Notes under the pieces: model-generated | Database searches by the model: none | Told to the model about the DNA's origin: nothing | The model's input: only the letters and a program-made list of their open reading frames with translations | From: Boudabousia marimammalium | GTDB lineage: Bacteria; Actinomycetota; Actinomycetes; Actinomycetales; Actinomycetaceae | Length of the DNA stretch: 64,000 nt | Direction of reading: 5' to 3' | Assembly (NCBI RefSeq): GCF_001936115.1 | Contig: NZ_MPDM01000003.1 | Location: 186,386 to 250,385, forward strand | Position numbers and translations under genes: made by a program | Shown here: positions 28,072 through 34,044 of the stretch, piece by piece | Position numbering within the stretch: position 1 is the stretch's first letter | Layout of the letters: every line of letters begins with the position of its first letter

Positions 28072-31000
28072 TTAAGCATAATTTCGAGCGGGCATCCCAA
28101 TCGGAACAGTTAGCGCTCTGACCTGATCCGCCAAAATTGTGTGCGCACCCGCATGCCAATCACAGATTCCTCGCACCAGCAAGGCGGATGCAGTTTCTAA
28201 GGTTTTGGCATATTTTTTCCACATTCCTGGGGTGCAGAGCACGTTTACTAATCCGGTTTCATCCTCCAAGGACAGGAAAGTTACCCCGTTTGCAGTGGCG
28301 GGACGTTGCCGATGGGTGATTACTCCAGCTACTTTGATGCGGGTCCCGGACTCTACCTGTTTTAGTTCTGTAGCACTGAGGCAACCTTCAGTTAGCAGCT
28401 TTGCGCGAAGTAGTTTCATTGGGTGAGAGCTCAAAGCTAGACTGGTGTTTTGCAGTTCTAAGCGAAGTAGTTCAGATTCAGAAAGGGCCGCTAGTTCAGG
28501 AGCATAGGCTCCTGCCGCGGTCCCTGGGAGGGGTGCTTGATACCAGCTGTCAGCATTTTTGACCCCAACAGCTCCAGCTTCCCAAAGCCCCTGTCGGCGG
28601 CTCACCCCAAGGCTTTCTAAGGCCCCCGCCAAGGCTAGTTTTTCAAGTTCTCGAACGCTTAGTCTGGCTCTGCTAGCTAGCTCTTCAACTGTCTGGAAGG
28701 GCCCCTCCGCTTTGCGGTTTTGCACAATTCTTTCTGCGCCTTTCCCAAGCCCTTTGACGGAGTGCAGCCCCAGTCTGATCCGCCCTTGCGAAGCCACTTC
28801 ATCAGGCAGAGAGGCCGTAGCTTCCAACTCAGAATATTGCACGTCCACGGGTTCCACTACCACTTCATGGCGCCGGGCATCTTGGACGAGGGTGGCGGGA
28901 CTGTAGAATCCCATGGGCTGACTGGCTAGAACTGCAGCGTAGAAGAAAGCTGGATAGTGAGCCTTCAACCAAGCTGAGGCATAAACAATATAGGCAAAGC
29001 TGAAAGCGTGGGATTCAGGGAACCCGAAATAGGCGAAGCTTTCAAACTGGTCGATTAAAGATTCTGTGTCAGCTGCGCTTATTCCTTTAGCTTGGAATCC
29101 TGCACGCAATTGGTTACGCAACTGCACGGCTTTTTCGGCGCCCCGTTTGGAGCCCATGGCGCGACGGAGTTCATCTGCTTGTTTAGGCGTGAAACCGGCA
29201 AGCACTACGGCAAGTTGCATGAGTTGTTCTTGGAAAAGGGGAATACCAAGGGTCTTTTCAACTACTGGGCGAGCTGCTTCATGTGGGTAGGTGACGGCCT
29301 CTTCTCCTCTGCGCCTACGCAAGTAGGGGTGCACGGTCTGTCCTTGAATGGGGCCGGGACGGACCAGAGCCACTTCCACCACAATGTCGTAAAAGCAGCG
29401 TGGCTGTAGTTGCGGGAGCATATTGATTTGTGCCCGAGATTCCACCTGGAAAACCCCGATGGTATCCCCGGCACAAAGCAGATCATAGACTTTCGGGTCA
29501 TCTTGTCCGATTGAGTGCAGGCTAAGGGTCTGTCCTCGCTCCCCTTTGATACCAAGTTTAGCCAATCCAGAAAAGGCAATTTTGAGGGCGGTAAGCATTC
29601 CTAAACCCAGTAGGTCAAATTTCACCAGTCCCGCGGCGGCACAGTCTTCTTTATCCCATTGCACTACGGTGCGGTTTTCTTTTGCTGCCCACTGAATGGG
29701 GACAAGTTCAGGAATCGGACGGTCCGCAAGGACCATACCACCGGAGTGAATCCCTACATGCCGCGGCAGATTCAGGAGTCCCTTACTGAGCCTAGCGACT
29801 TGCGCAGGTAGCTTTTCCGCCTGGATTTTTCTGTGTCCCTGCAGGTGCGTAAAGCGGCTGATTTCCGTCTCAGAGTAGCCGAGCGCTGCGGCGGTTAAGC
29901 GGATTGCCGATTTTGGTCGGAGGGTAATAATATTAGCTACTTGCGCGGCTTGCTGACGGCCGTAGGTACGGTACACATACTGGATGGCTTCTTCCCGGCG
30001 GCCTGATTCGATATCTAGGTCGATGTCTGGGTATTCTTTACGATCTGGGGAGAGGAACCTTTCGAAGAGCATTTTGTGCCGCACGGCGTCAACTGCGGTG
30101 ATTCCCAGCGCGTAACAAACCGCTGAGTTTGCGGCAGAGCCCCGGCCTTGACAGAGGATTTCTTGTTTTTCGCACCATTGCACAATGTCGTGAACGATGA
30201 GGAAGTATCCACAAAAACCTAAACCGGTAATAATGTTGAGTTCTTTTTCGATTAGTTCCCAGGCTGCTGGGGCTTCTGCCCTATTGCCGTAGCGGCGAGT
30301 GGCGCCGGCGATCACCAGCTGTCTCAGATAGGTGGCGTCATCAACGCCATCAAGATGCTTCAGTCTGGGTAGTTGTGGCCACGCGTTCGCAAGGTCGAAA
30401 GCTAATTGGGCACCAAATCGACCAGCATTGTGGAGGGCTTGCGGATAGTCTCGGTAAAGCCGAGCCAGCTGTGCCTTGCTGCGCACAAAGTTTCTTCGCG
30501 CCGGCAGTTCAGACTGACATTCAACTAGTGGTTTCCCTAGCTGAGCTGCCTGCATAAGATCCGCCAGCGGCACCTGTTCAGGTCTGGTGATTCGGATAGC
30601 TCCGGTAGCAATCAGGGGAAGCCCGTATTTTTCACTCAGGTAGTTGAGTTGGCGGGCATATGCGGCATCTCCCGGGTAGCCGCTGAGATTTAGTTCTATA
30701 CCAAGGCGGTCTTTCCCGAATTGTTCGATGAGCTGCCCAAGATCTGCTTCAGTTTCCGCAGAAGGTGTCGTGACGTCAAGATTCAGATGCTTTCCCAGCG
30801 GGCCGCGCCTAGTCCCGGTGAGAACAAACCAGTCTCCAGATAGTTCACTGAGTGAGTAGCTGGGCGCTTTTCTTTCCCCGGCAGCTAGGTTGTGCACGGT
30901 GATGGTACGGGAGAGTTCTTTATACCCTTCGGGCCCAGTTGCTAGGACTGGAAGGCAGCTACCATTTTCGAGGGTGAGTTCTGCCCCATAAATGCTGTTT

Positions 31001-31179
31001 ATTTGCTGCTCTTTACAGGCCTCATATTGTTGGATGACGGCGTACAGACCGTTATGGTCGGTAATAGCGAGGGCGGCATACTGAGCTTTCGCCGCTGCTT
31101 CCGCTAGCTGCCGTGGGGTGGCAACGCCATCCAGAAAAGAGTATGCGGAATGCGCATGCAACTCACTATAATCGAACAT
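28072..31179 (-). CDS. dnaE2: Error-prone DNA polymerase DnaE2
   Basis: DnaE2 is the C-family translesion polymerase of the ImuA'-ImuB-DnaE2 mutasome, used in SOS mutagenesis. An N-terminal PHP domain (YSELHAHSAYSFLDG) is followed by the polymerase palm with catalytic PDIDLDIE, fingers, a helix-hairpin-helix region and a C-terminal OB fold. The ATG at 31179 starts MFDYSELHAHS, the usual DnaE2 beginning, and lies inside a perfect LexA palindrome, 7 nt after TATAAT. An upstream ATG at 31206 adds nine residues but would lie upstream of the predicted transcription start. It is about 1035 residues. Confidence 0.95.
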   Translation of the reverse strand: MFDYSELHAHSAYSFLDGVATPRQLAEAAAKAQYAALAITDHNGLYAVIQQYEACKEQQINSIYGAELTLENGSCLPVLATGPEGYKELSRTITVHNLAAGERKAPSYSLSELSGDWFVLTGTRRGPLGKHLNLDVTTPSAETEADLGQLIEQFGKDRLGIELNLSGYPGDAAYARQLNYLSEKYGLPLIATGAIRITRPEQVPLADLMQAAQLGKPLVECQSELPARRNFVRSKAQLARLYRDYPQALHNAGRFGAQLAFDLANAWPQLPRLKHLDGVDDATYLRQLVIAGATRRYGNRAEAPAAWELIEKELNIITGLGFCGYFLIVHDIVQWCEKQEILCQGRGSAANSAVCYALGITAVDAVRHKMLFERFLSPDRKEYPDIDLDIESGRREEAIQYVYRTYGRQQAAQVANIITLRPKSAIRLTAAALGYSETEISRFTHLQGHRKIQAEKLPAQVARLSKGLLNLPRHVGIHSGGMVLADRPIPELVPIQWAAKENRTVVQWDKEDCAAAGLVKFDLLGLGMLTALKIAFSGLAKLGIKGERGQTLSLHSIGQDDPKVYDLLCAGDTIGVFQVESRAQINMLPQLQPRCFYDIVVEVALVRPGPIQGQTVHPYLRRRRGEEAVTYPHEAARPVVEKTLGIPLFQEQLMQLAVVLAGFTPKQADELRRAMGSKRGAEKAVQLRNQLRAGFQAKGISAADTESLIDQFESFAYFGFPESHAFSFAYIVYASAWLKAHYPAFFYAAVLASQPMGFYSPATLVQDARRHEVVVEPVDVQYSELEATASLPDEVASQGRIRLGLHSVKGLGKGAERIVQNRKAEGPFQTVEELASRARLSVRELEKLALAGALESLGVSRRQGLWEAGAVGVKNADSWYQAPLPGTAAGAYAPELAALSESELLRLELQNTSLALSSHPMKLLRAKLLTEGCLSATELKQVESGTRIKVAGVITHRQRPATANGVTFLSLEDETGLVNVLCTPGMWKKYAKTLETASALLVRGICDWHAGAHTILADQVRALTVPIGMPARNYA

Positions 31180-31193
31180 ATGTTCGATTATAG
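31166..31193 (-). promoter_or_regulatory. LexA/SOS box over the dnaE2 promoter and start codon
   Basis: A perfect 28-bp palindrome is centred between 31179 and 31180. Its core TCGAACATATGTTCGA matches the actinobacterial/Bacillus-type SOS box exactly. The minus-strand -10 TATAAT (31187-31192) and the ATG at 31179 both lie inside it. LexA bound here would block RNA polymerase directly, and the transcript would begin at or next to the start codon. Confidence 0.9.
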
Positions 31194-31212
31194 GTAATGT
31201 GTGCAAGGTTTG

Positions 31213-31839
31213 CTAGGAAGCTAAATGCCCGCCAGATTCTTCTAGATAGCAGGCACCACAAAGAGATTCGTAGGTAACCATGACCCCATCAATTGCTACT
31301 TGGTCGCCGTCGAACACAAATTCGTCCCCGATTTTTCGGGCGTTAAAGATGGCTTTGCGACCGCAACGGCAAATTGTTTTCAGCTCCTCTAACGTGTGCG
31401 CAATCTCTAAGAGCCGGCGCGCTCCTGGAAAGGCTTCAGTCCTAAAGTCTGTGCGAATACCGTAGGCCAGCACGGGAACGTTGTCCAGCAAAGCAATCCG
31501 CATCATGTCATCTATTTGAGCAGGGTTCAAGAATTGTGCCTCATCAACTAGCAGTGCAGCCACAGGCTCCATTTCCACATGTTTAACCAGAGCATTAGGA
31601 TCATCTCCCCGTGCGACAGCATGGAAATGATCGCGGAGATTGTCATTGCTGCCAACTAGGAAGTCAACTTTCCGAGAAACCCCTAAACGGGAAACTATGT
31701 AGGATTCCCCTTTGGAATCAATCTTTGGTTTGGCTAATAGTACTCTTTGCCCGCGCTCTTCATAGTTATAGGCGGCTTGCAGAAGCGCAGTGGATTTCCC
31801 AGAGTTCATTGCCCCGTATCGAAAATACAATTTAGCCAT
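31213..31839 (-). CDS. tdk: Thymidine kinase
   Basis: Tdk phosphorylates thymidine to dTMP in pyrimidine salvage. This 208-residue type II enzyme has P-loop RYGAMNSGKSTALL at the N-terminus, a catalytic VDEAQFL region, the zinc-binding cysteines in CRCGRKAIF and LCGACYLEE, and the lasso-like YESLCGACY loop near the end. A strong GGAGGGGGAG ribosome site lies just before the ATG. It sits between imuB and dnaE2 on the same strand, with no separate SOS box, so SOS read-through from imuA'B could raise it. Confidence 0.95.
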   Translation of the reverse strand: MAKLYFRYGAMNSGKSTALLQAAYNYEERGQRVLLAKPKIDSKGESYIVSRLGVSRKVDFLVGSNDNLRDHFHAVARGDDPNALVKHVEMEPVAALLVDEAQFLNPAQIDDMMRIALLDNVPVLAYGIRTDFRTEAFPGARRLLEIAHTLEELKTICRCGRKAIFNARKIGDEFVFDGDQVAIDGVMVTYESLCGACYLEESGGHLAS

Positions 31840-31895: not shown

Positions 31896-33509
31896 CTAGG
31901 TATAAACACCGTCAATTAACCACCCTCCTTGCTGGTAGCACAGCAAAATATCAATCTTTTTCCCACCTAATGAAGCAATTAAATAGGCCCTAGGGTTTTC
32001 ATAGTTACCTTCTTTAACACACCACCATTGCCCCCAAACTTGCCAAACCGGAGACTGCTTCTCTATTGCAACGCAATCTCCGCCCAAAAGTTCCCTTAAT
32101 ATGCGACTTTCAGCCGCCTTAATCCCCTTTCCGATCTTCAGCCAGGCCGGAGTGGAACTCATTTCCCCTGCCGCATCAATTAGAATGCTTTTATCTTCAC
32201 TGTCCACTACCTGCACCGGAAGAGGCCTTTCCAAAACGATTTCGGGCCACTTACCGATTTCTCTAAGCGCCCCTTCCCTGTCCAGTTTTAGCGCCCCCAA
32301 AGCTAGGTTTCTAGGGGCGTGATATTTTTCTACTTTGACGGCGCTACGGGGATCATATCCACCTTGATAAAAAGGCTGTTTAACCTCAGCCTCCCCAAGT
32401 GTAGTTTGTAGCCTACTGATTAGTCGGTAAGCTGCAGCCGTTTTCGCGTTAGCTGTCCCCCACAGGCTCTCTCCCACCTCTCCTGCCGGGTATGGATCCA
32501 CTGCTACCAAGGTAAGCTGCGTAATTATTTCTGCCAAACTTCCATTTTGTAGCCATCCTTGCAATTGCCATCTCACCCGATCTCTGATGGCGACCGCACT
32601 TTTTTCTCCTAATAAAAGCCAGGTTCGTTCTAGATGTTTAGCACTTTCAGTGACCGCCTGGATTGTGACGCCACGCAGAGAGTAACCCCTACCCTGCAGT
32701 TTTGAAATCAGCAGGTCCGCCGCCCGCTTCGCAACGAACCCTGCCATTTCAACCGTTTCCAACCCGGGATCGCAATCAATTTGAACTCTGATTTGCGGCG
32801 TATGCTGGGATTTCGCAACAACTGCAATATCGTTGCCGCTGGCCAGATTCCAAAGTTCCAGTCCCAGATCCCCAAAACGGGCATAGACGGCATTTTTAGG
32901 CGCCTGAGCTAGTTTTCCACAAGTATCTAACCCCAATCCCAGCATGACCGCTAAGAGGTCATCGAGCTGCGCTTGCGAATAATCTAATAAACCCAAATGG
33001 ACCACTTCACTAAGCGTGATATTGGATAAATAATGAGCGGTTTTCCCAGGTGGAAGAATCCGGTTTTCTTGGGCCGCCAACCAGGCCGCCGCCAAGGTGT
33101 CCGCTATCCCAACCATTACCTCCGCCCCCGTGGCAGACACTATGGTCTCAATCAAGAGTTCTTGCAGCTGCAGTTCCCCTCCCGCCCATTTGCTTGGTCC
33201 GACAGCAGGAGCCGTGAGAATACCAGGTCGCAAGACTTCCAGATTTGCCGCCAATTGAGCAGCCGCTGACACGACAGGTTCAAAGGCTCTTCCTTCCCGG
33301 GAAGGGTCGGGCGATAAATCCACCAGCTCTGGACATAGCTCATGTGCCTGCACAGCTCTCATTTTCGCTACAACGCCACAATTTTTAGCCGCATGATTAG
33401 GCAATAAGATTCTTCCTCGTCCTATAATCGCAGCCGGCATCCCAACTGGAACCTCCACCTCCAAAGCTGCCAGTGGCCAATCTGGAGCCAGCACGCAAAG
33501 CCATCTCAT
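31896..33509 (-). CDS. imuB: ImuB, inactive Y-family polymerase homologue
   Basis: ImuB is the catalytically dead Y-family hub that ties DnaE2 to the beta clamp. This 537-residue protein starts MRWLCVLAPDWPLAALE, where active Y-family enzymes carry DxDxFFASVE, so the metal-binding acids are missing. A clamp-binding-like motif QLTLV is at residues 331-335. Its start overlaps the imuA' stop by 4 nt (ATGA), so both are co-translated. The long C-terminal region interacts with ImuA' and DnaE2 in other species. Confidence 0.9.
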   Translation of the reverse strand: MRWLCVLAPDWPLAALEVEVPVGMPAAIIGRGRILLPNHAAKNCGVVAKMRAVQAHELCPELVDLSPDPSREGRAFEPVVSAAAQLAANLEVLRPGILTAPAVGPSKWAGGELQLQELLIETIVSATGAEVMVGIADTLAAAWLAAQENRILPPGKTAHYLSNITLSEVVHLGLLDYSQAQLDDLLAVMLGLGLDTCGKLAQAPKNAVYARFGDLGLELWNLASGNDIAVVAKSQHTPQIRVQIDCDPGLETVEMAGFVAKRAADLLISKLQGRGYSLRGVTIQAVTESAKHLERTWLLLGEKSAVAIRDRVRWQLQGWLQNGSLAEIITQLTLVAVDPYPAGEVGESLWGTANAKTAAAYRLISRLQTTLGEAEVKQPFYQGGYDPRSAVKVEKYHAPRNLALGALKLDREGALREIGKWPEIVLERPLPVQVVDSEDKSILIDAAGEMSSTPAWLKIGKGIKAAESRILRELLGGDCVAIEKQSPVWQVWGQWWCVKEGNYENPRAYLIASLGGKKIDILLCYQQGGWLIDGVYT

Positions 33510-34003
33510 GAGGCTTTAACCTCTCGCCCCAAAACCTGTTCCCGCTGCCTTTGTAGCTCTAGAGAATAAGCCAGTAAGAGGGTGTCGCGAGCCTTCGCTT
33601 TAGCCTCCAGTCTAAGCAACTGCGAAGAAGTAAAAAGCTCTGCCTCATAAACCACTACCTCCACCGCCCCCAGCATTGTTTCCATCACCCAAAGAGCCCG
33701 CTCTTCCGGCGAAGGTAAATAAAGAACCCTGCCTAAATCTATGCCCATTTCCGCCCAGGCGGCCCAACCGATTGAAACCCGCCCCAGTACCGCCGCCCAA
33801 CCGGAGGTACCCATCACAGTTTTTACTCGCTCCGACAGGCTAATATTGCTACCTCCCCAAACTTTCGATGGCTTCGCTTCCTGTGCAAAGTCTTGCAGGA
33901 AGGCCCGGTCCTTTAACCCAAAAGCAACCTCTGCCTGGTTTAAGACCGAGCGCGCCAACCCCAGTCTTTGCTGCTGCTCCACCGTTTTTGAGCTTCCTTC
34001 CAT
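33506..34003 (-). CDS. imuA': ImuA'-type mutasome accessory protein
   Basis: This 165-residue protein is a shortened, RecA-like-fold relative. The core GWAAVLGRVSIGWAAWAEMGIDLGRV... followed by ...LYLPSPEERALWVMETMLG resembles actinobacterial ImuA', and no intact Walker A is visible. It is shorter than the roughly 200-residue mycobacterial protein. It anchors imuB and DnaE2 into the mutasome in other species. AAAGGAGG lies 8 nt before the ATG. A LexA box at 34024-34039 lies over its promoter. The assignment leans partly on context. Confidence 0.8.
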   Translation of the reverse strand: MEGSSKTVEQQQRLGLARSVLNQAEVAFGLKDRAFLQDFAQEAKPSKVWGGSNISLSERVKTVMGTSGWAAVLGRVSIGWAAWAEMGIDLGRVLYLPSPEERALWVMETMLGAVEVVVYEAELFTSSQLLRLEAKAKARDTLLLAYSLELQRQREQVLGREVKAS

Positions 34004-34023: not shown

Positions 34024-34044
34024 TAGAACATATGTTCGATAATA
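34024..34044 (-). promoter_or_regulatory. LexA/SOS box and -10 of imuA'-imuB
   Basis: TCGAACATATGTTCTA (34024-34039, minus strand) differs from the perfect box by one base. A TATTAT -10 (34039-34044) overlaps its upstream edge. Layout and sequence closely match the dnaE2 box. Confidence 0.85.

Follow-up and report, generated by a model that had tools for sequence, protein, structure and literature searches.

In the established SOS pathway, DNA damage leads RecA to stimulate the self-cleavage of LexA. The mycobacterial LexA SOS box, TCGAAC(N)4GTTCGA, has a core identical to that of the box described here. In the account of its LexA motif given in PMC4181829, the refined mycobacterial motif is MKWMTCGAAMRYWTGTTCGA, and dnaE2 and HNH genes of the 13E12 family are among the mycobacterial LexA targets. 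According to the relevant text of PMC9380542, dnaE2 of Streptomyces venezuelae is likewise bound and controlled by LexA. Leaderless expression of an SOS gene is described in part of PMC2897130 for lexA of M. tuberculosis, where the translation start is the transcription start, as we predict for dnaE2 at the present locus. Here the predicted start codon of dnaE2 lies inside an exact LexA box that itself begins on the last base of a predicted -10 element (Table 1).

Table 1. Features at and upstream of dnaE2, with positions in the window.
Feature	Position	Strand	Basis or remark
Exact palindrome, 28 bp	31166..31193	.	repeat finder
LexA box TCGAACATATGTTCGA	31172..31187	.	exact consensus match; 7 relatives share its place and start geometry
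dnaE2, error-prone DNA polymerase	28072..31179	-	NF004225, 1221.6 bits (cut-off 939)
Predicted dnaE2 start codon ATG and predicted transcription start	31177..31179	-	box positions 9-11
Predicted -10 element TATAAT	31187..31192	-	last T is box base 1
Alternative in-frame TTG	31204..31206	-	upstream of the predicted -10
Mirror TATAAT, probably coincidental	31167..31172	+	conserved in 1/8
tdk, thymidine kinase	31213..31839	-	NF003300, 251.3 bits against 195; PF00265; directly upstream of dnaE2
imuB-like gene (Y-family)	31896..33509	-	PF00817, 41.4 bits against 23.2
imuA'-like gene	33506..34003	-	NF058630, 51.7 bits, under the cut-off of 65
Second LexA box, one mismatch (34024-34039), with TATTAT (34039-34044)	34024..34044	-	upstream of imuA'

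The LexA box and the start of dnaE2

The first-pass annotation of the window (the whole 64-kb stretch of DNA analysed) had reported a palindrome, exact over 28 bp, with the consensus LexA box as its core. The repeat finder confirmed that its arms (31166-31179 and 31180-31193) are 14 nt each, 100% complementary and without a spacer. No other palindrome without a spacer in the window has arms of 9 or more, and 200 Markov-1 sequences, each 64 kb long, gave arms of up to 11, against 14 at this site; the 28-bp palindrome at dnaE2 exceeds chance length. The core, TCGAACATATGTTCGA at 31172-31187, matches TCGAAC(N)4GTTCGA exactly, in agreement with the earlier reading; nowhere else does the window match TCGAACNNNNGTTCGA without a mismatch. 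When two mismatches were allowed, the window held 3 matches against 2.55 expected; since this count is not above chance, only the exact box is remarkable in the window.

The order TATAAT (31192-31187), 7 nt and ATG (31179-31177) on the minus strand was also as had been claimed, and this ATG opens MFDYSELHAHS. The product scores above the cut-off of the error-prone DnaE family profile NF004225 (NCBIfam), whose alignment begins with the residue that ATG 31179 encodes. The distance of 7 nt falls within the 6-7 nt required of a leaderless start, and a simple motif check found no Shine-Dalgarno before this ATG. No -35 element was recognisable at the site and the consensus promoter scan returned no sigma-70 pair, so the -10 element is what carries the promoter prediction. 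The earlier annotation had named an ATG at 31206 as a start whose use would contradict its reading; the codon there is in fact TTG, and upstream of ATG 31179 it is the only in-frame ATG, GTG or TTG.

Among 42 window gene starts hand-picked from the ORF list, 11 had TANNNT exactly 6 nt before the start, against 0.83 expected (binomial p 5e-10), the expectation being the mean per spacing at 12-59 nt for the same 42 starts. Roughly one start in four thus has the motif at this distance, which suggests that leaderless expression is widespread in this genome. The genes with the 6-nt spacing include ones read from their frames as uvrB and polA. The 7-nt spacing is less usual: it was found at 2 of the 42 starts, one of them dnaE2.

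We consider it likely that a LexA operator sits on the start point of a leaderless dnaE2. As the predicted -10 element ends on box base 1, initiation would take place at or near the in-box ATG: RNA polymerase would start at this ATG, or within about 2 nt of it, and the mRNA would begin with the start codon. With LexA on the box, the start point would be covered and RNA polymerase kept from initiating; transcription entering from tdk might be stopped as well. Once LexA had cleaved itself in response to DNA damage, the site would be open again. Translation runs through the right half of the box, so that a Met-Phe-(Asp/Glu) N-terminus would be dictated by the operator. The sequence, its geometry and conservation, the reading frames and the presence of lexA and recA are observed; we infer the transcription start, LexA binding, repression and the N-terminus of the protein.

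dnaE2 5' ends across the family

The family sample comprised 151 genomes drawn from a larger group, and a dnaE2-like match was present in 125. We read the 5' ends at 90 dnaE2 loci from these 125 genomes, our own genome included. At eight of the 90, in three genera and with the window among them, the start lies in the box (class III). All eight have an in-frame RTG (ATG or GTG) at box position 9 (box +8), a TANNNT flush with the box and ending on its base 1, Phe as residue 2, encoded by TTC, and Asp or Glu as residue 3; the N-termini are MFDY, MFEY, MFDR, MFDI, MFDS, VFES, VFDD and VFDV. In four of the eight the in-box codon is the sole in-frame ATG, GTG or TTG upstream of the PHP motif. TTG 31206 has no counterpart in L010, L011, L019 and L167, where the in-box codon is the only start candidate. 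Class II, with 26 loci in five genera, has the order box, abutting TANNNT, 6 nt and RTG; TANNNT is at box +16 and RTG at box +28 in 26/26, and none of these proteins has Phe as residue 2, compared with 8/8 in class III. The distance from -10 to start is therefore rigid in both classes, and the box lies on either side of the -10. The overlap of codon and operator, which the first-pass annotation had proposed to look for in related genomes, is thus kept at eight loci in three genera. The conserved RTG and flush TANNNT favour the leaderless dnaE2 mRNA, with a start codon that is itself operator DNA, which it had predicted, and the invariant RTG, TTC and acidic residue 3 fit its view that the first codons are constrained by the box.

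The start-in-box arrangement is not general in the family, since no box with at most one mismatch was present within 300 nt of dnaE2 at 56 of the 90 loci. Four of these 56, all from genus g4, carry a degenerate box placed as in class III, three in frame and one out of frame. In the latter (L170), the degenerate in-box ATG opens, by reading, a short ORF whose stop overlaps the dnaE2 ATG. Of four genomes sampled in the window's own genus, a dnaE2 match is present in three, all of them class III; the dnaE2 proteins of this genus are 51-53% identical to that of the window, yet the class III arrangement is kept. On a dnaE2 tree of 53 rows, made by a quick method that flags long branches (including L011 of the window's genus), class III needs three changes, at least two of them forced by well-supported branches. 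Class III is therefore either old and lost, or arose more than once.

A search with a shorter module in nine genomes of the class III genera gave the dnaE2 site as the single match in five, further matches in G000, G028 and G057, and none in G019, which has no dnaE2 match. In genus g28, imuA' starts in a box of its own in both genomes (NF058630, 71.5 and 63.8 bits; cut-off 65). In a sample of 80 named loci from outside the family, L043 has an in-frame in-box ATG preceded by GATAAT, not TANNNT, before the box; L045 has an in-frame in-box GTG, L041 an in-frame TTG, and L048 the class II spacing.

The annotation had further suggested that TATAAT might be used on both strands. Both copies are present in the window, as expected of a bidirectional operator-promoter, but a flush TANNNT on the other strand was found at only one of the eight start-in-box sites, the window itself. 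The frame from the mirror ATG on the plus strand is just five codons long (MFDYR-stop). The left palindrome arm is the -10, whereas the right is GAT TAT, the Asp and Tyr codons, with the Tyr belonging to the conserved YxELH motif. With the mirror TANNNT at one site in eight, we rejected reading on both strands, and such a promoter appears very unlikely.

We also rejected the 28-bp length as a general feature, as the window's symmetry extends 6 bp past the box and that of the other seven class III sites 0-1 bp. The length and the mirror TATAAT in the window are probably coincidental, although extended symmetric flanks also occur in L024, L129 and L043. In the flank-symmetry table, which holds 25 of the 26 class II loci (L035 being left out), symmetric flanks of 9 bp are recorded for L024 and L129, and of 5 bp for L164 and L165. 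The class II boxes of L024 (about 1458-1491) and L129 (about 1464-1497) stand just behind a collinear helicase-like gene, and their 9-bp flanks differ from each other, with matching changes on both sides. A divergent promoter fails as an account of these flanks because the upstream gene runs the same way. In L043, a MAG titled Acidimicrobiaceae, the arms at the dnaE2 box are 14 bp by eye and those at another box of this locus 13 bp by script, as if the lineage favoured a longer operator.

Neighbouring genes, SOS setting and read-through RNA

On the minus strand of the window the order is imuA'-like gene, imuB-like gene, tdk and dnaE2, all collinear and close. Against NCBIfam the imuB-like gene gave Pol IV matches alone, all under their cut-offs. 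The position of tdk between imuB and dnaE2 is noted here; a tdk match was seen in the fetched stretch near dnaE2 at 11 of the 90 family loci. At the second box, upstream of imuA', the register of TATTAT to the box is identical to that of the -10 and box at dnaE2. The in-box ATG (34031) is out of frame with imuA', whose own ATG at 34003 lies behind AAAGGAGG. From this in-box ATG runs a 60-codon ORF that overlaps the start of imuA' in a different frame. If transcription began at this ATG, the mRNA would open directly with an AUG and carry, 28 nt further along, another start preceded by a Shine-Dalgarno.

The genome encodes LexA (TIGR00498, 215.9 bits against 110.95) and RecA (TIGR02012, 563.9 against 325.3), with boxes near lexA and recA at C4:77015 and C4:88900. 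RuvA was confirmed by profile, and a box lies near ruvA. Boxes with at most one mismatch occur at eight places in the genome, two of them exact. The count at one mismatch was eight on each strand against ten on each strand for a backward-pattern control; being below the control, it leaves weak single boxes to be judged by gene context. Neighbouring frames tie six of the places to SOS genes: dnaE2, imuA', recA, ruvA, lexA and a YneA-like gene, divergent from lexA, whose profile match is under cut-off. Among these six, the box at dnaE2 is the only one that contains the start codon of its own gene.

The gene order allows another account, in which dnaE2 is expressed mainly by read-through from imuA'-imuB-tdk, is translated from TTG 31206 or ATG 31179, and uses the box as a roadblock operator only. 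The closeness of the four collinear genes and the box of imuA' are in favour of this account, as is the presence of imuB just upstream of dnaE2 at 48 of the 56 family loci that have no box nearby. It leaves unexplained, however, the exact register of TANNNT with the start in 8/8, and its candidate TTG is not conserved, while ATG 31179 has no Shine-Dalgarno that we could find. Moreover, the read-through RNA is predicted to form a hairpin with the start codon at its tip (z -5.3), compared with z +0.3 for RNA beginning at the ATG. We therefore regard expression mainly by read-through as unlikely, and favour initiation at the in-box start codon.

The predicted folds were compared across class III. 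In read-through RNA the first two bases of the start codon lie in the loop at seven of the eight sites. The leaderless 5' end is predicted to be open at five of the eight and not at the three of genus g11, an argument against promoter-specific openness as a general rule. A dual DNA and RNA device, with DNA bound by LexA, a read-through hairpin with the start codon at its tip, an open leaderless RNA, and actinobacterial boxes that serve as a reusable cassette of promoter, operator and start codon, is a speculation that we regard as possible but doubtful. If it were true, translation would be promoter-specific, and the mutator polymerase would be silent both when repressed and in read-through RNA. 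As a cassette, LexA boxes would write Met-Phe-(Asp/Glu) onto many SOS proteins.

Start codons in LexA boxes beyond dnaE2 and in described systems

In genomes of the class Actinomycetes, the module TANNN-TCGAACNNRTGTTCGA was found in 89 of 394 (174 strand hits), compared with none for the backward control and with 5 of 394 genomes (5 hits) for a module with YTG in place of RTG. A chance overlap would be one in which the LexA consensus supplies TG at positions 10-11, so that some boxes offer an NTG. Generic LexA boxes in 118 genomes gave 498 RTG and 127 YTG strand hits; this purine preference at position 9 agrees with such an overlap, and LexA's own preference accounts for some of the RTG excess. 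However, a flush TANNNT accompanied 60 of the 498 RTG hits but only 4 of the 127 YTG hits (Fisher p 0.001, with strand hits of one palindrome, and of relatives, not being independent). We read 71 of the 174 RTG strand hits, at 70 loci, of which 67 had sequence for at least 150 codons. The in-box frame was open for at least 150 codons at 48 of these 67 sites, and not at 19, compared with 9 and 15 for the other two frames. Together with the fixed in-frame position and flush TANNNT in 8/8 dnaE2 genes, these counts make chance overlap extremely improbable as the origin of the dnaE2 arrangement.

Among the 53 module proteins of at least 100 aa, 45 form one cluster (L181-L247), and all seven clustered proteins tested matched DUF222 and/or HNH above the Pfam cut-off. 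Three further module proteins resemble UvrD-type helicases; two of them were compared with helicase models and scored under the cut-offs. In our sample the start-in-box arrangement was commonest at the DUF222/HNH genes of other Actinomycetes families; in M. tuberculosis such HNH genes are the 13E12 family, as named in the pertinent text of PMC4181829. The predicted arrangement is thus recurrent in Actinomycetes, beyond dnaE2.

Our search of the open-access literature, which took in portions of PMC3848588 and PMC3062782, found no description of a start codon inside a LexA box, although one may be in print. The dnaE2 box of Streptomyces venezuelae, in the text cited above (PMC9380542), is at -68 from the predicted start codon, unlike that of the window. 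Similarly, the passage on M. tuberculosis lexA (PMC2897130) does not place its start codon inside the box, in contrast to dnaE2 here. In Deinococcus, as described in parts of PMC5552922 and PMC8072749, the motif (RDRM) of the damage-response repressor DdrO overlaps promoters, and at ruvB the promoter so overlapped has its transcription start at +1 of the gene. DdrO is, however, another repressor, and its 17-bp motif, which runs from the -35, stops short of the start codon.

A further likeness is with mycobacteria. The published motif is asymmetric, both in the bases left of the box and in the WTG at its centre (PMC4181829), and this asymmetry fits a -10 element and a start codon, as at the start-in-box sites; neither a -10 element nor an in-box start codon is mentioned in that paper's section on the motif. 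Starts within boxes would offer a reason for the asymmetry. They would also suggest a rule for the starts of SOS genes, with RTG either at box position 9 or at box +28. At dnaE2 one palindrome would carry three codes, as it would bind the repressor, set the transcription start and spell the first codons; the N-terminus of a protein would be put under selection by a repressor. The predicted dnaE2 site joins the known control by LexA to the known leaderless mode of expression in a conserved start-in-operator arrangement.
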